Shown: positions 5,952 through 16,394 of the stretch, piece after piece | Position numbering within the stretch: the first letter of the stretch is position 1 | How the letters are laid out: the number at the start of each line of letters is the position of its first letter | Assembly (NCBI GenBank): GCA_028716785.1 | Contig: JAQUPD010000001.1 | Span: forward strand, 135,114 to 199,113 | Source: Fidelibacterota bacterium | GTDB lineage: Bacteria > Fidelibacterota > Fidelibacteria > Fidelibacterales > Fidelibacteraceae | Length of the DNA stretch: 64,000 nucleotides | Direction: 5' to 3' | Notes under the pieces: model-generated | Database searches by the model: none | Told to the model about the DNA's origin: nothing | What the model saw: the letters and a program-made list of their open reading frames with translations, nothing else | Translations under genes and position numbers: made by a program

Positions 5952-8510
5952 CTAAAAAAACTGAGCGAGATTATAGCGAAGAATGAGTCCAATAGTAATA
6001 ATACTTACCATCGTCGCTAATTTTACTGCTATATCCATAGAAGGTCCGCTGGTATCTTTAAGGGGATCACCCACCGTATCGCCTGTAACAGCTGCATGAT
6101 AACTTTCCATAATTGTACGGAATTTTATATTCAACTCTCTCATGGAAAGTAATACATCATGATCTTCTTGTGCAAGCTTCAGAAATTCTCTGAACATAAA
6201 TTTGTCATTGTTATTAAGCTTTCCCCAAAGGTTATGAAAGTGTTCATCCTGATAAGGCTTCACGTTTCGCGAACCATACGCATCAAAAAGAGGCTTTATG
6301 TCTTTCCCTTTTTTAATGTATTCATCTTGTACATATTCGATAATTTGCCCCATATATTCGGAAACTTCTTCATCAATAGAAAAAGCAAGGGGATTGAGAT
6401 TCACAAGTTCGTACAGGAAACGATTGGTTTCATGGGTTAAATAAAAAGGCCAGAGTCCTTGGCGAGAGATTTTTTTAATCCCATCATCAATCTGAAACCG
6501 AAGTTCAGATTTAGTCCGTTCGATATATTTCTTTGCATTATCCCATGCTCCACCAGCATTTGCCATAAAAATAGCAAGAATAATTCCCACTAAAAGATTT
6601 CCAATAAGAAGCCCCATTACCGCAACAGGTCCGAGTAATAGTCCTGTAACAATGGGCGTAAGAATAACAATAACAGCTGGGCTCACCATTTTTTTCTGGG
6701 CTGCGAGGGTAGAAATTTGCACACATTTGCTATAATCAGGGGTTGTTTCACCGGTCATTACACCTTTGATTTCGTGAAATTGACGACGGACCTCATCAAT
6801 CATTTCGCCAGCTGCCATAGATACCGCATCAATAGTTTTGCTAATAAACGAGGTACCAAGAATCCCCCCAATAAAAAGTCCAATAATAAAGCGAATATCC
6901 AGTATTGATGCTCCCAAATAATTAAGAATCTGGAGAATGTCTGCATTTTTTATAGAGACATTAGAAATCATTTCCACATTCATTCCTATCAAAGCAGTTC
7001 GAATGGTTTCAACAAAAGCAGCGATAAGGGTGATAGCGGTAAGGGCAGCTGCTCCTACGCAGAGTCCTTTTCCTCTAGCAGCTGTAGAGTTCCCCAATTC
7101 ATCGAGAGAATCAGTCCGTTTTCGTGTTTGACTAGACATTTCAGCCATTTCAGCAAGTCCACCGGCATTATCAGCAATGGGGCCAAATCCATCCGTAGTT
7201 AAATTAATGCCCAATGTTGATAACATTCCAACAGATGCCAATCCAATAGCAAAAAGACCTGAGGAAAAATTCTGAAACCCTCCGCCAGTCCAAAAGGCTA
7301 AAAACATGCCTATAAGGATAAAAATAAAGGTTGGTGCAGTAGAAATAAACCCAACGGAAAGTCCTGAAGTAATCACGGTAGCATGACCTGTTCGTGCCTG
7401 CATGGCAATCTTTTTTACAGGTGAAAAGGCGGCATTAGTATAAAAATCTGTTATATATCCTATAGCAACGCCTACAGCAAGGCCGGATATAATAGGTAAA
7501 AAGAGTGACCAAAAATAACCTGGTAGAAGGAAGTGGATAGCAAGAGCGCTAAGAACGAGTGTTAGAACAGAAGCAAAATTAATTCCCCTATTGATAGCTT
7601 TTAAAAGACCAATTTGTTCAGCATTTTCTTTGGTACGAACAATATAAATACCAAAAATCGAGGCAACGGTTCCAAGTGCAGCAATTATCATAGGAAGTGT
7701 TACTGCTTGATAGAGAAAATCGGTTCCAGCAAAGGCACTCACTCCTAGGGCGGCTGCTCCGAGGGTTGAGCTAACATACGACTCATAAAGGTCTGCACCC
7801 ATTCCGGCCACATCACCGACATTATCCCCCACATTATCAGCAATCACTGCAGGATTTCGGGGATCATCTTCGGGAATTCCTGCTTCCACTTTCCCAACAA
7901 GATCAGCACCCATATCAGCCGCTTTGGTAAAAATACCACCCCCTACACGAGCAAAAAGAGCTTGCGCAGATGCACCAAAACCAAAACTTAACATGGTTGT
8001 AGTAATAATTTGGAGCTTTTCAACAGGGTCCGGATTATGAATGGCCATTTGCAAAACTATAAACCAAACAATGATATCTAACAACCCCAGTCCAACAACA
8101 ACAAGTCCTAAAACCGATCCCCCTCGAAAAGAAATTTTCAGTGCATCGTTCAACGAATTGCTCGCGGCATGTGTCGTTCGACACGATGCTTTTGTTGAAG
8201 TCATCATGCCCAAAAATCCACTAAGTCCTGAAAAGAATGCACCGGTTAAAAAAGCAAAAGGGACAAACCGAGATAATGCCCCAAATCCAAATGAGAAAAT
8301 AAGTAAAATCACAAAGGCACCAAGAAAAAATATACCCGTGGTTTTATACTGCTGTTTTAAATAAGCAACAGCCCCTTTACGGATATAACCAGCAAGTTCT
8401 TGGACACGTTTATTCCCAGGATTTTGCTCTGACACCCAGCGATACATAAACCAGGCAACAAAAAGAGCTGCAAGAGACCCAAGGGGAACAATAATAAGAG
8501 CATATAGCAT
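5952..8510 (-). CDS. hppA: membrane-bound ion-pumping pyrophosphatase with C-terminal insert
   Basis: An integral membrane enzyme of 852 residues that couples hydrolysis of pyrophosphate to H+ or Na+ export. Family signatures are clear: GADLVGKVEAGIPEDDPRNP and then DNVGDNVGDVAGMGADLYES, the Mg-PPi binding loops, plus the late DTVGDPLKDTSGP motif. The segment LGNSTAARGKG carries Ala where K+-independent members have Lys, so it is probably of the K+-dependent class; whether it pumps H+ or Na+ cannot be read by eye. Family members are usually about 650-750 residues. The extra length here is a charged, soluble stretch of about 140 residues (665-804) between GGAWDNAKKYIE and HAAVTGDTVGDP, where relatives have about 20. 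It is transcribed away from the polysaccharide genes, with a 192-base AT-rich divergent promoter region between them. Confidence 0.95.
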   Translation of the reverse strand: MLYALIIVPLGSLAALFVAWFMYRWVSEQNPGNKRVQELAGYIRKGAVAYLKQQYKTTGIFFLGAFVILLIFSFGFGALSRFVPFAFLTGAFFSGLSGFLGMMTSTKASCRTTHAASNSLNDALKISFRGGSVLGLVVVGLGLLDIIVWFIVLQMAIHNPDPVEKLQIITTTMLSFGFGASAQALFARVGGGIFTKAADMGADLVGKVEAGIPEDDPRNPAVIADNVGDNVGDVAGMGADLYESYVSSTLGAAALGVSAFAGTDFLYQAVTLPMIIAALGTVASIFGIYIVRTKENAEQIGLLKAINRGINFASVLTLVLSALAIHFLLPGYFWSLFLPIISGLAVGVAIGYITDFYTNAAFSPVKKIAMQARTGHATVITSGLSVGFISTAPTFIFILIGMFLAFWTGGGFQNFSSGLFAIGLASVGMLSTLGINLTTDGFGPIADNAGGLAEMAEMSSQTRKRTDSLDELGNSTAARGKGLCVGAAALTAITLIAAFVETIRTALIGMNVEMISNVSIKNADILQILNYLGASILDIRFIIGLFIGGILGTSFISKTIDAVSMAAGEMIDEVRRQFHEIKGVMTGETTPDYSKCVQISTLAAQKKMVSPAVIVILTPIVTGLLLGPVAVMGLLIGNLLVGIILAIFMANAGGAWDNAKKYIERTKSELRFQIDDGIKKISRQGLWPFYLTHETNRFLYELVNLNPLAFSIDEEVSEYMGQIIEYVQDEYIKKGKDIKPLFDAYGSRNVKPYQDEHFHNLWGKLNNNDKFMFREFLKLAQEDHDVLLSMRELNIKFRTIMESYHAAVTGDTVGDPLKDTSGPSMDIAVKLATMVSIITIGLILRYNLAQFF

Positions 8511-8702: not shown

Positions 8703-9593
8703 ATGACAAAAGAAAAGATCCTTATAACGGGCGGTAATGGGTTGCTCGGTTATCATTTATCCTGTGTGTTCCAGGATGTGGGTAAAATCCTTTCGTCAGA
8801 TCTGCAGCCTTATAGTATCACTGCAGGCATTCCCTATTCACCTTTAAATATTTCAAATAAAGAGGCAGTTTTTGCCCTTTGTAATACTTTTAATCCCTCT
8901 TTAATTCTTAATGCTGCCGCCTATACAAATGTTGATGATTGTGAGTCTTCAATAGAAACTGCCTTTTTAGTGAATACCAGTGGTCCTCGCTTTCTTGCAG
9001 AATGGTGTGAAAACCACGCTTGCAAACTCATTCATTTTAGCACTGATTATCTTTTTAATGGAGAATCAGGGCCTTACAGAGAGACAGATGCACCGGATCC
9101 TATTAACATGTATGGCTTGTCAAAACTTGGTGGTGAAGCACAAATTCGCAGGATTTTAAAAAATCATCTTATCGTCCGCACCAATGTGCTCTTTGGAAAA
9201 GGCCCCACGGAAAAAGCCAGTTTTGTCCGCTGGGTCGTGGAAAATCTCCGGGAATACCGTGTTATTCATGTGGTAGATGATCAATATAACAATCCTACCT
9301 GGAGCAATGATCTTGCTTTGGCTGTGAAACAATTTTATACCTTGGGTGTTACAGGGGTAATAAATTATGGGGGGCTTGATTATTTGAATCGTTACGCCTT
9401 TGCAAAACTTGTAAGTGACGTTTTTAACCTAGATGCATCCTTAATCCACCCTATTTCCACAAATCGCCTCGCACTTGCAGCTCCCCGCCCTTTAAAAGGA
9501 GGTCTTGATATTACTAAAATAAAATTGCTTCCCAATATCCCTTTAACACCTTTGAAAACAATTCTAACCCGTATAAAGGAAACAGGTTATTGA
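8703..9593 (+). CDS. RmlD-like NAD(P)-dependent sugar nucleotide reductase
   Basis: A 296-residue short-chain dehydrogenase/reductase of the dTDP-4-dehydrorhamnose reductase (RmlD) family. The Rossmann glycine motif TGGNGLLG is at residues 9-16, STDYLFNGE marks the active-site strand, and MYGLSKLGGE supplies the Tyr-x-x-x-Lys pair. In rhamnose synthesis such an enzyme makes dTDP-L-rhamnose, but rmlA, rmlB and rmlC are not nearby, so the exact substrate is uncertain. It opens a plus-strand cluster with two glycosyltransferase genes and overlaps the next gene by four bases, which indicates coupled translation and a shared surface-polysaccharide role. The start ATG 8703 has only a weak ribosome site. 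Confidence 0.8.
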   Translation: MTKEKILITGGNGLLGYHLSCVFQDVGKILSSDLQPYSITAGIPYSPLNISNKEAVFALCNTFNPSLILNAAAYTNVDDCESSIETAFLVNTSGPRFLAEWCENHACKLIHFSTDYLFNGESGPYRETDAPDPINMYGLSKLGGEAQIRRILKNHLIVRTNVLFGKGPTEKASFVRWVVENLREYRVIHVVDDQYNNPTWSNDLALAVKQFYTLGVTGVINYGGLDYLNRYAFAKLVSDVFNLDASLIHPISTNRLALAAPRPLKGGLDITKIKLLPNIPLTPLKTILTRIKETGY

Positions 9594-10306
9594 AACGGAT
9601 CGTTATTATTCCTACTTATAATGAAAAAGCCAATTTGGCAAATCTTATTAAGGACATTCGGAGCCTTGATTTAAATTCGCTGGATATTTTAATTGTTGAT
9701 GACAATTCTCCAGATGGAACAGCAGATATTGTGCGAGAGTTGCAAAAACATGATGAGCGGCTTCATCTTATTGTTAGACCCAAAAAACTTGGACTTGGGA
9801 CGGCATACATTGAAGGATTTCATTTTGCCTTGAACCATGGGTATGATCGCATTGCCCAAATGGATGCAGATTATTCCCACGATCCCAAAGACCTTGTAAA
9901 ACTTTTTGAGGAAGTTGAAAAATATGACTGGGTTATTGGAAGCAGGTATGTTACGGGAATTAATGTTATCAATTGGCCTCTCAAACGGTTACTCCTTAGT
10001 TATGGGGCAAATGTCTATACACGGGTAATAACGGGAATCCCCATTAAAGATGGAACTGCCGGTTTTAAATGTTGGAAAAGCACAGTTTTGAAAAATATTG
10101 ATCTCAATAGCATTCGTTCTCAAGGATATTCTTTCCAGATTGAAATGAATTTTCGTGCCTGGAAAAAAGGTTATCAATTTCATGAAATTCCTATCATATT
10201 TATCGACCGTTTAGAAGGCCAATCAAAAATGTCTAAAAAAATTATAAGAGAAGCTGTCTTTATGGTTTGGAAACTCAAAATTTATAGTCTTTTTCACCGC
10301 ATATAG
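9590..10306 (+). CDS. polyprenol-phosphate mannosyltransferase-like GT2 enzyme
   Basis: A 238-residue family 2 glycosyltransferase of the DPM1 type, which moves a sugar (usually mannose from GDP-mannose) onto a polyprenyl phosphate at the inner membrane. Visible motifs are IIPTYNEKANL at the N-terminus, IVDDNSPDGTAD (nucleotide-binding Asp pair), MDADYSHDP (metal-binding DAD), GSRYVTG and a C-terminal IDRLEGQSKMS. There is no C-terminal membrane domain, so it is a short soluble or peripheral form. It begins at TTG 9590, overlapping the stop of the preceding gene as ATTGA, with AAAGGA upstream. The lipid-linked sugar could feed the DUF2723 (PMT-like) transferase encoded at 43.6-46.3 kb; that link is inference. 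Confidence 0.85.
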   Translation: MKRIVIIPTYNEKANLANLIKDIRSLDLNSLDILIVDDNSPDGTADIVRELQKHDERLHLIVRPKKLGLGTAYIEGFHFALNHGYDRIAQMDADYSHDPKDLVKLFEEVEKYDWVIGSRYVTGINVINWPLKRLLLSYGANVYTRVITGIPIKDGTAGFKCWKSTVLKNIDLNSIRSQGYSFQIEMNFRAWKKGYQFHEIPIIFIDRLEGQSKMSKKIIREAVFMVWKLKIYSLFHRI

Positions 10307-10319
10307 CCTCAATATCCCT

Positions 10320-12287
10320 ATGAAACAAGATATAAACCCCATCATGGATATTGATCTTTCTATAATTATCGTGAGTTATAATGTCCGCGATTTATTAAAA
10401 CAATGTCTTTTATCTATCAATAATGCCTGTAAATCTCTCACTGTAGAAATTTTTGTCGTGGATAATCGTTCGGTCGATGGAACCCCCGATATGATCCATA
10501 AAGACTTCCCCCATGTACATCTTATTGCCAATTCTGAAAACCTCGGTTTTGGAAAAGCTAACAATCAAGCCCTTAAATCAGCGCAAGGGAAATATACTCT
10601 TTTTCTTAATCCCGATACCATTATCCGGGAGGATACCCTTGTCGTCATGATGCAATTTATGGAAACACATCCAGAAACAGGAGTCGCCGGCTGTAAAATT
10701 TTAAATATCGATGGGTCCCTTCAGCTGGCATGTCGACGAAGCTTTCCCCGTCCTTCTGTGGCAATTTTCAAAATGTTAGGACTTAGTGCTCTTTTTCCTA
10801 AAAGTTCTGTTTTTGCAAAATACAACCTTACCTATTTAGATCCTGATAAATGTTACCCTGTTGATGCTGTAAGTGGTTCTTTTATGTTTTGTCGTACCTC
10901 TCTTGTTAAGTCTCTTAACGGGTTCGATGAGCGTTTTTTTATGTATGGTGAGGATTTGGATTTATGTTACCGTGTAAAACAAGCTGGCTATCAAGTTACT
11001 TACGTACCCGATACAACAATTGTCCATTATAAAGGAGAGAGTTCAAAATCAGCCCCTTTTGACAATCTGATCGCCTTTTATCGCGCTATGGATCAGTTTG
11101 TCCGTAAACATTTCCATCCCAGAAAGTGGATTCTCTCTGTCCTTGTCCTGCGACTGGGGATACTTTTTCACCTTATGTTACATTTTATCGGAAAAATTCT
11201 CTATAAACTTCGTGCACCCCTTTTGGATATCTTTCTTATTGTCATTGCCCATGCCTTAGCCCTTGTCATTCGCTTTCGGGATTTTTCCTGGTTTTTTAAA
11301 TATCAACCCATTATTCCCCTTTATGCAATGATCTATTTAGGATCTATTCTCGCTTTAGGAACACTCGGTAATCGAAAATTTGATTATACACGAACCTTTG
11401 GAGGAGTAATTTTAGGGGGACTCATTAATGGATGTATCACCTTTTTTATTCCTCCCATTGCCCACTCTCGATTGGTATTTATAATTGCTTTTTTACTTAC
11501 TCTTCTTTTTCTTCCGGGATGGCGACTTATTTATCACATCTTTCTCCGTAAACGAACAGATGATACTTCAACCCTTCGGAAAGCCTTAATTGTGGGTGCC
11601 GGTGAAAAGGGACAACAACTTGCCAAAACCCTTACAGAACACCCCGAAACAGGATATCTTTTTGTAGGATTTGCTGATCATACCTTTAATCATCCTCAAA
11701 CAATCAGTAAAATTAACGATATCCCTGAAACCGTGCGGATGAAACACATTGATGACATTATCATTGTGCTAAATGAAATACAAAGTTCTGAAATGATGCA
11801 GATTATGAATCATCTTCAAAGTATTCCTGTCAATATTAAAATTGTCCCTGAAAATATCGATACTATTTACGGTAAAACACACCTGGAAAATATTGATGAC
11901 ATTGCTATGGTGGATGTACAATTTAATATTTATCAACCTGTCCCCGCCTTTCTTAAACGTTTTTTTGATATCGTTGGAAGTTCACTATTGCTCATTCTTT
12001 TGGCAATTCCCGCAGGTCTTAGCCGGATTTTTAATTCTCCCTTCTCCAAATGGTATGGTAAATTACTTCTTATTTTAAAGGGAGATTGGACATTCGTAGG
12101 GGATGATGCAACAGTGCCAGACAAAAAGAAATATTATAAGCCAGGACTCACTGGGATCCTTCAATTAGAAAAATCCGAATCTATCACAGCCGAAGAGCAT
12201 GAACGTTACATGACATTTTATATGCGAAATTATTCCATTATGATGGATATAGAGATTCTGGTAAAAAGGTTAAGCGGAATATGGTAA
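10320..12287 (+). CDS. GT2 glycosyltransferase fused to degenerate polyprenyl phosphoglycosyltransferase
   Basis: 655 residues in two parts. Residues 10-290 form a rhamnosyltransferase-like GT2 domain: IIIVSYNVRDLL, VVDNRSVDGT, NPDTIIR, and GEDLDLCYRVKQAG with the usual ED acceptor motif. From about residue 290 hydrophobic helices lead into a Rossmann-type segment (ALIVGAGEKGQQLA, near 422) as in polyprenyl glycosylphosphotransferases of the WbaP/WecA-unrelated (PHPT) type. The C-terminus starts like these enzymes (KRFFDIVGSSLLLILL, near 546) and ends like them (LKGDWTFVGDD, YYKPGLTGILQL). The loop normally between them, with the conserved Gln-Arg, KFRSM and catalytic Asp-Glu, is absent, so this half is probably inactive and may serve as a membrane anchor or partner. 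The start is ATG 10320; ATG 10347 is an alternative. Confidence 0.85.
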   Translation: MKQDINPIMDIDLSIIIVSYNVRDLLKQCLLSINNACKSLTVEIFVVDNRSVDGTPDMIHKDFPHVHLIANSENLGFGKANNQALKSAQGKYTLFLNPDTIIREDTLVVMMQFMETHPETGVAGCKILNIDGSLQLACRRSFPRPSVAIFKMLGLSALFPKSSVFAKYNLTYLDPDKCYPVDAVSGSFMFCRTSLVKSLNGFDERFFMYGEDLDLCYRVKQAGYQVTYVPDTTIVHYKGESSKSAPFDNLIAFYRAMDQFVRKHFHPRKWILSVLVLRLGILFHLMLHFIGKILYKLRAPLLDIFLIVIAHALALVIRFRDFSWFFKYQPIIPLYAMIYLGSILALGTLGNRKFDYTRTFGGVILGGLINGCITFFIPPIAHSRLVFIIAFLLTLLFLPGWRLIYHIFLRKRTDDTSTLRKALIVGAGEKGQQLAKTLTEHPETGYLFVGFADHTFNHPQTISKINDIPETVRMKHIDDIIIVLNEIQSSEMMQIMNHLQSIPVNIKIVPENIDTIYGKTHLENIDDIAMVDVQFNIYQPVPAFLKRFFDIVGSSLLLILLAIPAGLSRIFNSPFSKWYGKLLLILKGDWTFVGDDATVPDKKKYYKPGLTGILQLEKSESITAEEHERYMTFYMRNYSIMMDIEILVKRLSGIW

Positions 12288-12291
12288 AATT

Positions 12292-13248
12292 ATGGCAAAA
12301 ATAATTTTAGATTTTGAACGGGAGCTTACAGAGATAGAAGCTCTGATTCGTGATCTTAAAGAACGTGAGAATTTATATAACGAAAATCATCAGGATCAAA
12401 TTCATGAATTGGAAAAAGAATTTGAATCCCTGGCAAAAAAAACCTATGCGAATCTGAATCGTTGGCAAAGGGTTCAGTTGGCAAGGCATCCTGATCGCCC
12501 CTATACGCTAGATTATATTCAGCAAATTGCAGACACGTGGATGGAACTTCACGGTGATCGACGGTTTGCGGATGATCCAGCAATTGTCGGCGGTATTGCC
12601 CAAATTGCTGAAACAGGTGTAATGATTATTGGCCATCAAAAGGGGCGGAATGTTAAAGAAAACATGATACGTAATTTTGGCATGCCTCAGCCTGAAGGAT
12701 ATCGAAAGGCCTTACGGCTTATGAAATTATCTGAAAAATTCAACAAACCCATTATTACCTTTATTGATACACCTGGTGCCTACCCTGGGTTGGGGGCGGA
12801 AGAGCGCGGACAGGGAGAAGCTATTGCCAGAAATCTTTTTGAAATGTCCCGTTTACGCGTTCCGATTCTAAGCATCGTAATTGGAGAAGGTGCAAGTGGC
12901 GGTGCTTTAGGAATTGGTGTCGCTGACCGATTAGTTATGCTTGAACATACATGGTACTCTGTCATTACTCCTGAAGGATGCGCTTCCATTCTCTTTCGAG
13001 ATGCTACCCGCGCACCACAAGCTGCTGAAGCAATGAAAGTAACAGCGCAGGACCTTTTTGATCTGGGCATTGCCGATCGAGTAATCCAGGAACCTCTTGG
13101 CGGCGCTCATCGAAATCCTTTAAAAATGGCAGAAATCCTAAAAAGAGTTATTCTTGAAGAACTTCAACTCCTCAAAAGTTTTTCCCTTGATGAACTACTA
13201 GAGCAACGGCTGAATAAATATGGACAAGTAGGTGTATACGAAGAATAA
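12292..13248 (+). CDS. accA: acetyl-CoA carboxylase carboxyltransferase subunit alpha
   Basis: 318 residues, the usual AccA length. It forms the carboxyltransferase with AccD and moves CO2 from biotin to acetyl-CoA, giving malonyl-CoA for fatty-acid synthesis in the cytoplasm. The N-terminus is the expected helical region (FERELTEIEALIRDL), followed by LARHPDRPYTLDYI, IVGGIA, GHQKGRN, FIDTPGAYPG, GEGASGGALGIG and the SPEGCA-type segment, seen here as TPEGCASILFRDA. All of these are typical of the family. It starts four bases after the preceding stop; only a weak ribosome site is visible, so translation may depend on the upstream gene. accD is not in the window. The downstream barrel gene begins within 20 bases. 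Confidence 0.97.
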   Translation: MAKIILDFERELTEIEALIRDLKERENLYNENHQDQIHELEKEFESLAKKTYANLNRWQRVQLARHPDRPYTLDYIQQIADTWMELHGDRRFADDPAIVGGIAQIAETGVMIIGHQKGRNVKENMIRNFGMPQPEGYRKALRLMKLSEKFNKPIITFIDTPGAYPGLGAEERGQGEAIARNLFEMSRLRVPILSIVIGEGASGGALGIGVADRLVMLEHTWYSVITPEGCASILFRDATRAPQAAEAMKVTAQDLFDLGIADRVIQEPLGGAHRNPLKMAEILKRVILEELQLLKSFSLDELLEQRLNKYGQVGVYEE

Positions 13249-14716: not shown

Positions 14717-16394
14717 ATGATAAAATCTATACTAGATATTATTGGATAACAAATATAGACACGAAAAGATTCACCCGCAATTTTTCAAAAATTTAATGGT
14801 AGAATGAACCTACGACTGCCTTACTTTTGAACAATTTGGACACAGTATCGTTTGCATGACACACTATTTAAAAAAGAGAGGGTAGAAAAAGAGATAAAAT
14901 CGCCTTAATGAGTGGGAATTATTTTAAATGACTTGTTATTGATTTAGCCATGCAAAGCCTTGATGCTATCCTTGTTCCCCCTTATATCAATTTGAGCAGT
15001 GTGATATAGAAAGGTTATTACACGCCGAAACTTCTACTTTAATTATTGAAAATAGTGATTTTTTTAATCCTCATCATACATTATTAAAAAATTATGGGGA
15101 TTAACCTTTATTTTATAGTTCCTATTCAGAATGGTATCCAAAATTTTACCTGGCTCCGCGAAGCCAAGGCAAATGAAAAGGAGCAAGAAATATATCATAC
15201 GCTTTTGAAATCCCTAAACACGGAAGCAATCATCTCAATCAATTATACCAGTGGAACGTTGGGAGAACCAACAGGCATCTTAATGACGCATAAAAATATC
15301 ATTACTGATACATTTTTTGCAATTCGGTTCCTTCCAATTTTCCCAGAAGACCGTTTTTAAAGTTTCCTACCTTTTAGTCATGCTTTTGAGCGCATGGCAG
15401 GTTATTATTGTCACTCTTTGTAGGGGCACAAATTGCCTATGCTGAAAGTATAGCAACGGTTATTGATAATGCTAAAAAATTCAGCCAACAATGAATAATA
15501 TGGTTCTTTTCTTTTTAGAAAAGCTCTACGATACTCTCTAAGCAAATATTGCAGAAATGTCTAGTATTAAATGATCTCTTTTTAAACAAGCTATGAAACA
15601 TTCCAAATACACACAAGGTCACGTTGATGATACCATAGTTGATCACCTAAAAGACTCTTTCTATAACACGCTTGTTTATAAAAAAATCTTATCAGCAGTC
15701 AGTCCAAGATTACGAATGTTAATGAGTGGTAGTGCATCTCTTGCCCCTGAAATTGGTGATTTTTTACGGTCGATACACCTCAGTGTTATTGAAGGATATG
15801 GATTAACAGAAACATCCCTTATCATTGCTTTAAATAAAATCGAAGCAAATCGTTCGGGTTCGGTTGGTCAGCCTATAGATTGTAATGAGGTAAAAATTTC
15901 TGAACAAGGAGAATTTTATCCGCAGATATAATGTAACGCAAGGATATTACAAAGAACCTGCCATCACAGTAGAAGCTACTGACAAAAAAGTATGGTTTTA
16001 TACGAAAGATTTAGAAGTTCTTGATGATGATAATTTTCTTTATATCACAGGGCAATTAAAAAATTTGATGGTTACCAGCGGGGGAAAAAACATATTCCCA
16101 CAACCCCTTGAAAATATCCTTTTAGCGAGCTTATGGATTGAACAAGCCAATACCTGAGCCTTGCGAGGCAATTCAAGACCCAAACATTCTTGCCATTTTT
16201 CAGAAAGAAATTGAAGAGAAAATGGAACTTTTTTCCCGCTATGAGCAAGTGAAAAAATTCACGTTATTGTCTGAGCCATTCTCTATTGGAAAGATAAGTT
16301 TACTCCCATATTGAAAGTAAAACGCACTGTTGTAGAAAATCAAAATAATTATGCCCAAGAAATTGAGGCAATGTATAAACCCTTAAAATCCTGA
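14717..16394 (+). pseudogene. decayed long-chain acyl-CoA synthetase (AMP-forming)
   Basis: This 1.7 kb stretch has no intact frame, but pieces in several plus-strand frames line up in order with a long-chain fatty-acid CoA ligase. In order: SPAIFQKFNGR (near 14790), TYDCLTFEQFG, DKIALMSGNYF then a stop then LVIDLAMQSLDAILVP, INYTSGTLGEPTGILMTH (ATP-binding P-loop, near 15240), FLPFSHAFERMAGYY, GAQIAYAESI, FLEKLYDTL, SPRLRMLMSGSASL, IEGYGLTETS, GYYKEPAI, KVWFYTKDLEVLDD, LYITGQLKNLMVTSGGKNI, EQVKKFTLLSEPF and LKVKRTVVEN, ending at TGA 16392. The total length equals a complete gene, so decay was by point changes and small indels rather than large deletion. The two longest surviving frames are 15094-15360 and 15593-15931. 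An original start at ATG 14717 has AGGAAG upstream. Confidence 0.9.

Follow-up and report, generated by a model that had tools for sequence, protein, structure and literature searches.

A GT2 glycosyltransferase apparently carried by a phosphoglycosyltransferase shell without catalytic loop in Neomarinimicrobiota and Bacteroidota

In the window, as we call the whole stretch of 64,000 nucleotides that was analysed, one gene joins a GT2 glycosyltransferase to a polyprenyl phosphoglycosyltransferase (PGT) from which the catalytic loop is missing, and this raises the question what function is left for such a PGT half. The coordinates of the gene, its domains and its neighbours are collected in Table 1. 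The gene forms a single unbroken frame, and the motifs KRFFDIVGSS, LKGDWTFVGDD and YYKPGLTG were found in it where the original prediction had placed them. The GT2 domain is intact, as had been claimed: Pfam matches it (PF00535 at residues 14 to 132, E = 1.2e-24; PF13641 at residues 13 to 243) and the NPD and ED.D motifs are retained. Together with a GT-A fold (VIA-align Z of about 20 to 23 to GT-A enzymes), these motifs place it structurally in the GT2/PF00535 class. The residues N97, P98, D99, E211, D212 and D214 were invariant in all 48 aligned sequences, and among 122 fused proteins the motif EDx[DE] occurs in every one and NPD[TAS] in 119. In its GT-A fold and its NPD and GEDxD motifs the domain resembles GT2 enzymes of the rhamnosyl/fucosyl type (TIGR01556 rhamnosyltran, WrtF 9omm, RmlT 8bz7); the match to TIGR01556 is weak with 40.8 bits, and all NCBIfam scores of the domain are far below the cut-offs.

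Table 1. Features of the fusion gene and of adjoining genes, in positions of the window.
Feature	Position	Strand	Details
RmlD-like dTDP-4-dehydrorhamnose reductase	8703..9593	+	PF04321 2.6e-64; TIGR01214 rmlD 223.0 bits, cut-off 224.05
Small GT2, polyprenol-phosphate sugar synthase (DPM1-like) type	9590..10306	+	238 aa; Pfam PF00535
GT2::pseudo-PGT fusion gene	10320..12287	+	655 aa, stop 12285-12287; open reading frame and translation
Intact GT2 (GT-A) domain	10347..11054	+	Residues 10-245; NPDT 97-100, GEDLD 210-214; Pfam
Four predicted membrane helices, as in large PGTs	11190..11552	+	Residues 291-411; AlphaFold2 model of 290-655
PF13727 stretch, ending in Rossmann-like CoA_binding_3/DUF domain	11367..11849	+	Residues 350-510; Pfam 5.3e-17
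Predicted beta hairpin, at position of WbaP dimerisation hairpin	11883..11915	+	Residues 522-532; model strands 233-236, 239-243
Pseudo-PGT domain	11955..12284	+	Residues 546-655; Bac_transf match, PglC superposition, alignment
Missing catalytic loop, approximate site	12033..12062	+	Between residues ~572 and 581; alignment with intact PGT of the same genome
AccA, acetyl-CoA carboxylase subunit alpha, directly downstream	12292..13248	+	PF03255 5.7e-143

The distance between KR..D and VG is 49 residues in the fusion protein (counted by hand), whereas the intact PGT encoded in the same genome has 107. About 58 residues including LDE are missing, which bears out the predicted loss of the loop with the Asp-Glu pair. 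Since the intact PGT is encoded elsewhere in the genome, on a different contig from the fusion gene (G000:C11, L001), the cell does not lack the priming chemistry. The pseudo-PGT domain retains the reentrant helix, VG, KPGLTG and the C-terminal helix, without the catalytic loop and the DE pair. The Bac_transf model PF02397 matches residues 582 to 650 only, corresponding to positions 94 to 173 of 179 in the profile (5.6e-10), and thus covers part of the core. For residues 301 to 563 the closest NCBIfam model was TIGR03025 (EPS_sugtrans, 1.3e-46), followed by WcaJ and WbaP, all below cut-off. The sequence is that of an apparently active GT2 carried by a pseudoenzyme.

AlphaFold2 models reached a mean pLDDT of 80.8 for the whole protein and 86.6 for residues 290 to 655. 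The separate model of the C-terminal half was made because the GT2 domain fills the match list of the whole model: VIA-align returned only GT-A type enzymes and their kin, with WbaP outside the best 50 rows. Using Foldseek, the top PDB match was WbaP 8t53 for the whole protein as well as for the C-terminal half (E = 2.8e-12 for the latter). Residues 249 to 366 of the half model were superimposed on PglC 8g1n with a Z of 11.9 (117 residues, 2.9 Å, 30% identity). The superposition on WbaP 8t53 gave a Z of 12.7 over 319 residues with an rmsd of 15.7 to 16.3, a value so large that the domain placement in the model differs or is wrong and is not to be trusted. The membrane helices lie at model positions 2-30, 42-56, 67-87 and 95-122, and Pfam, the model and Foldseek all point to the architecture of large PGTs, with the PF13727 domain lying between a membrane bundle of four helices and the PGT core. 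The predicted hairpin is of low confidence (local pLDDT about 60 to 80) and was seen in a predicted monomer.

Compared with the large PGTs (Lg-PGT) WbaP and WcaJ, which combine PF13727 and PF02397, the fusion protein shares the four-helix bundle, the PF13727 domain, the predicted hairpin, the reentrant helix and the PGT core fold with KR..D, VG and KPG.TG, but it is devoid of the catalytic loop, the Asp-Glu pair, KFR.M, D.R.T and PRP and has a GT2 enzyme joined at the N-terminal end. A literature search by title and abstract revealed no paper on a fusion of a GT2 with a PGT lacking catalytic residues; an earlier mention is possible in O'Toole 2021, which is reportedly a network study of monotopic PGTs. 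The fusion is also similar to the Bi-PGTs in that an enzyme domain is fused to a monotopic PGT core; in the account of Bi-PGTs given in PMC10942596 this core is catalytic, whereas in the fusion proteins it is dead in all members that were examined.

The fusion protein was searched against 61 genomes of Neomarinimicrobiota. Near-full-length fused homologues were present in 51 of them, one (L019) being cut by a contig end, and one further genome contains a fused homologue divided between the ends of two contigs (L054, L055). The other nine genomes, several of them incomplete or very small, gave GT2-type or partial matches only. Full-length orthologues with 74 to 80% identity were found in five other genomes of the window's genus, and the closest named matches are Candidatus Neomarinimicrobiota MAGs (79, 79 and 74% identity). 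When 50 complete fused proteins were aligned with three intact PGTs from the genus, none of the 50 had D in the column of the nucleophilic Asp, and 5 of 50 had E in the Glu column. The loop had been described as cleanly deleted; this applies to the six genomes of the window's genus, but most Neomarinimicrobiota relatives keep, as judged by eye, about 20 to 35 residues of a degenerate loop.

A homologue of 660 residues was identified in a Bacteroidota MAG (L062) downstream of a recR-like gene, which we name recR because this setting resembles the neighbourhood in Parabacteroides. A search of 148 genomes of the Bacteroidota group yielded a match at E ≤ 1e-40 in 114, and in 74 genomes, as counted from the match list, the best match lay in an open frame 600 or more residues long. 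We examined 90 loci, comprising the long frames and some GT2-only ones; 89 gave a protein and 72 a protein of at least 560 residues (L196 of G173 gave no protein, L094 of G157 has 525 residues, and L062 and L065 are one gene). In these 72 fused proteins 26 to 79 residues separate KR..D from VG, compared with 106 to 107 in four intact PGTs. The DE pair was present in all 46 intact comparison PGTs and in none of the 72, so that homologues with the same loss are found on both sides, the pair being absent from 50 of 50 Neomarinimicrobiota and 72 of 72 Bacteroidota-group proteins.

The distance from KR..D to VG shrinks in grades, from about 107 residues in the intact enzymes over 67-79, 44-54 and 26-28 residues down to proteins without a PGT half. 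The fused proteins L186 to L189 (G062, G067, G072, G077; 611 to 616 aa), with 26 to 28 residues from KR..D to the next conserved G, are by their sequence apparent intermediates between the pseudo-PGT and the GT2-only forms, and the size of their remnant indicates that the constraint relaxes in places. Sixteen GT2-only rows of 369 to 413 aa represent 15 distinct genes, because L090 and L197 are the same gene. Of 17 short rows, two of the 17 being one gene, six are without the ED.D motif of GT2. Parabacteroides distasonis contains a GT2-only gene (WP_005856215.1, 388 aa) between recR and a GNAT gene. The protein is without the PGT half, its GT2 shares 57.7% identity with the GT2 of the fused Bacteroidota protein P0002, and L062 likewise has recR upstream and a GNAT gene downstream. 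This common setting suggests that the genes are orthologous and that the Parabacteroides lineage lost the PGT half entirely. Since the orthologue is a GT2 alone in Bacteroidales-like lineages, of which the Parabacteroides gene and the 15 short genes are examples, the shell can be dispensed with in places.

An intact GT2-PGT fusion, as an ancestor would have been, was not seen among the listed PF02397 matches from 199 Neomarinimicrobiota and 148 Bacteroidota-group genomes; the long frames read for this purpose are L096, L098 and L101, which are joined to a polytopic-PGT-like half instead of a GT2, and the matches listed for the Bacteroidota group contain further long frames of 730, 790, 828 and 834 aa. 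These three Neomarinimicrobiota proteins of 818 to 866 aa (G053:C168, G023:C1 and G227:C47) consist of an apparent polytopic PGT, presumably MraY/WecA-like, and an intact large monotopic PGT with DE. The polytopic half of L101 looks degenerate by eye.

For the analysis of conservation the 122 fused proteins (50 from Neomarinimicrobiota, 72 from the Bacteroidota group) were aligned with the 46 intact PGTs, and positions conserved in at least 85% of the intact enzymes were compared. Kept in Neomarinimicrobiota and in the Bacteroidota group, respectively, were K1 (100 and 90%), R2 (100 and 85%), D5 (100 and 88%), G107 (100 and 100%), G135 (100 and 86%), Y163 (100 and 100%) and D172 (100 and 97%), whereas R41, M57, D74, R76 and T78 (each 0 and 0%), D90 (0 and 3%), E91 (10 and 0%) and R109 (0 and 14%) were lost. 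The reentrant-helix residues K1/R2/D5, P18, G101, S104, G107, PG.TG, Y163, N166, S168, D172 and I175 persist, although several of them are kept in only about half of the Bacteroidota-group proteins, and with them the structural motifs KR..D, VG, KPG.TG and YY..N.S..D. Erased are SPGP, R41, K53-F54-R55-M57, D74-R76-T78, D90-E91, PRP at 108-110, W139 and K174. The kept and the erased positions thus distinguish a structural shell from an active site.

A FastTree phylogeny was calculated from the membrane-plus-DUF region (273 columns, 168 sequences), in which the intact PGTs are the top-scoring or listed ones and not a random sample. A single split with a support of 0.991 separates the 46 intact PGTs from the 122 fused proteins, with none misplaced, and a tree with 34 of the 46 intact PGTs, selected by a motif filter, agrees with the tree in which all 46 were taken by similarity. 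Neomarinimicrobiota is represented by 50 sequences, which form a clade (support 0.806). Because of the split between intact and fused proteins, fusion and loss look like one old event; the tree suggests that it predated the divergence of the sampled lineages or that the gene was afterwards transferred between phyla. As YN00 gave usable dN/dS values in only 1 to 10 pairs per domain, we used the raw pN/pS over all 15 pairs of the genus. The values were 0.127 for GT2, 0.115 for TM, 0.171 for DUF, 0.271 for the pseudo-PGT and 0.191 for the pseudo-PGT core. The pseudo-PGT half is clearly under purifying selection, which is weaker than on the GT2, and within the genus no other part of the protein is as weakly constrained as the pseudo-PGT.

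The small GT2, which is called DPM1-like here and which Pfam assigns to GT2 only, lies directly upstream of the fusion gene in all 49 Neomarinimicrobiota loci with enough flank. RmlD follows further upstream in 36 of 44 Neomarinimicrobiota loci and in none of 28 loci of the Bacteroidota group. AccA is located directly downstream in 40 of 49 Neomarinimicrobiota loci, and downstream in 46 of 72 Bacteroidota-group loci; the Neomarinimicrobiota loci that deviate belong to other genera of the window's own family. Upstream in the Bacteroidota group we found the small GT2 in 36 of 69 and recR in 5 of 69 loci. In at least 51 of 73 Bacteroidota-group genomes an intact PGT is encoded no more than 6 kb from the fused gene, compared with a chance expectation of about 1%, which is a rough estimate, not computed, from few PGTs per genome of 2 to 5 Mb. 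All 51 are on the same strand as the fused gene, 34 upstream and 17 downstream. The upstream ones are mostly 738 to 861 nt away, a spacing that fits the small GT2 lying in between (L084, L085). In 22 of the 73 genomes none of the listed intact PGTs is near the fused gene, and the position of the intact PGT of the window genome on another contig also indicates that the pairing is not universal. The original prediction is thus extended by the spread over two phyla, the apparently single origin, the conservation of neighbouring genes and the frequent pairing with an intact PGT.

Two further observations concern the window itself. On the minus strand at 5952-8510 it encodes an H+-pyrophosphatase of 852 aa, of which PF03030 matches residues 14 to 668; the C-terminal rest, which exceeds the 645-position model, consists of a long hydrophilic segment and a hydrophobic end. 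At 15094-15931 two short frames match positions 140-193 and 285-358 of the AMP-binding model PF00501, probably the traces of a broken acyl-CoA synthetase gene.

The C-terminal half had been predicted to act as a scaffold or sensor. Since the active site of the PGT is lost, the half is retained under selection and the GT2 motifs are kept, a role in scaffolding, docking or sensing follows naturally, but by themselves these findings do not separate a scaffold from a regulator. The conservation of the fusion in two phyla indicates that the dead half is probably a membrane platform for the live half, which would build sugar chains, and we consider it probable that the GT2 uses the dead PGT as a platform for membrane attachment, dimerisation and polyprenyl-phosphate binding in the assembly of lipid-linked glycans. 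The sequences show that an ancestral large monotopic PGT with four membrane helices, PF13727 domain, reentrant helix and PGT core was fused with a GT2 and was deprived of the catalytic loop and the Asp-Glu pair, apparently once, and that selection has maintained the shell since then. As a cradle the shell would hold the GT2 at the inner membrane face, form dimers via the DUF hairpin in the manner of WbaP, and bind the polyprenyl-phosphate end of the acceptor. The GT2 would then attach one of the first sugars to a polyprenyl-linked sugar supplied by the products of neighbouring genes, namely the small DPM1-like GT2 and/or, in most genomes of the Bacteroidota group, the intact PGT. RmlD adjoins the fusion gene in the window's lineage, and dTDP-rhamnose is therefore a reasonable guess for the donor there. 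WbaP, according to the description in PMC10942596, dimerises via a hairpin between the DUF and the PGT domain and shows binding of and inhibition by UMP; by analogy, the PF13727 domain of the fusion may sense nucleotides.

The dead half could instead pair with the cluster's intact PGT in mixed dimers and control or channel it; the GT2 would be delivered to the product of the PGT, and the main role would be the control of initiation. The frequent and co-oriented intact PGT within 6 kb speaks for this regulator, as does the dimerisation of large PGTs, since the hairpin region is predicted to be kept in the fusion. The 22 of 73 genomes with no listed intact PGT nearby and the separate contig in the window genome speak against it, and we regard it as unlikely. 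The graded shrinkage of the loop down to proteins without PGT half, and a pN/pS of this half above that of the GT2 domain, would also fit a decaying and functionless relic that is carried along with a needed GT2. Such a relic is quite improbable, however, because the frame, the membrane helices, the DUF and specific PGT positions are kept in 122 proteins of two phyla and the pN/pS of 0.27 is far below 1. An artefact of assembly or annotation, with the loop present in the real gene, has practically no probability: apart from the draft state of the genome (2.19 Mb, 71 contigs) nothing is in favour of it, and the same junction occurs in five more genomes of the genus, one of them a single contig (G004). 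The original prediction had named a homologue with the loop as the sign of an assembly deletion. This deletion was rejected, as the junction recurs in the genus and none of the 122 homologues restores the loop.

For the platform reading a more specific pathway can be considered. An O-glycan core of a hexose (mannose) and a deoxyhexose (rhamnose) is common to most Bacteroidota species according to a 2025 review (PMC12871550), in whose account of the core the machinery is encoded elsewhere in the genome by genes not identified, and the pathway resembles O-mannosylation. The core disaccharide is given as 2-O-methyl-Rha-(1->3)-Man, again with core genes lying elsewhere, in PMC8698959, and the shared hexose, deoxyhexose and hexuronate are confirmed in PMC10897501. 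This Man-Rha core might be made by the block of small DPM1-like GT2 and GT2::pseudo-PGT, to which RmlD belongs in Neomarinimicrobiota and, in many Bacteroidota-group genomes, an intact PGT: the small GT2 would form polyprenyl-phosphate mannose, the GT2 of the fusion would add rhamnose while the dead PGT holds the polyprenyl-phosphate mannose, and Neomarinimicrobiota would share Bacteroidota-type O-glycosylation. The conserved pair of a DPM1-like and a membrane-tethered GT2, with RmlD adjoining in one phylum, fits this reading, which we put forward tentatively and consider rather unlikely. Hints of dTDP-rhamnose in the window genome are RmlD beside the fusion gene and RmlC (PF00908) elsewhere. 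One GT-C family, PF13231 (PMT_2), was searched in this genome and no protein was found, which counts against the O-glycan reading.

The sequon D[ST][AILVMT] was counted in secreted proteins, called by a crude hydrophobicity rule for signal peptides, and compared with the expectation from composition in six genomes with bootstrap and then in five more. In the sampled part of the window genome the ratio was 1.74 in 79 predicted secreted proteins (190 observed, 109.2 expected, bootstrap 1.41-2.11) versus 1.17 in 84 predicted cytoplasmic ones, and D ranks first of 20 residues in the sequon context. This enrichment is clear, as it is in two other genomes with the block, G025 (1.91) and G094 (2.05); it is weak in G166 (1.22) and absent in G126 (0.98). 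Ratios of 1.21 and 0.78 were obtained for GT2-only genomes, 0.43, 1.17 and 0.85 for genomes without a hit, and 0.75 for E. coli. In the GT2-only genome G118 the ratio of 1.21 in secreted proteins was exceeded by that in cytoplasmic proteins (1.68). Prevotella sp. oral taxon 299, intended as positive control, showed no enrichment (0.78), and a Parabacteroides stretch of 16 kb, included in the pilot only, was dropped as too small with 2 predicted secreted proteins and 0 sequons. Because these results are mixed and the classifier is crude, the link to O-glycans is given here as a possibility only.

If the platform reading is correct, the fusion proteins would represent an old and conserved family whose initiating membrane enzyme was stripped of its catalytic core and has survived as the carrier of another enzyme. 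The family would offer a natural experiment on the role of the large-PGT shell apart from catalysis, and its fixed neighbourhood may provide a concrete candidate for the core genes of O-glycosylation in Bacteroidota.
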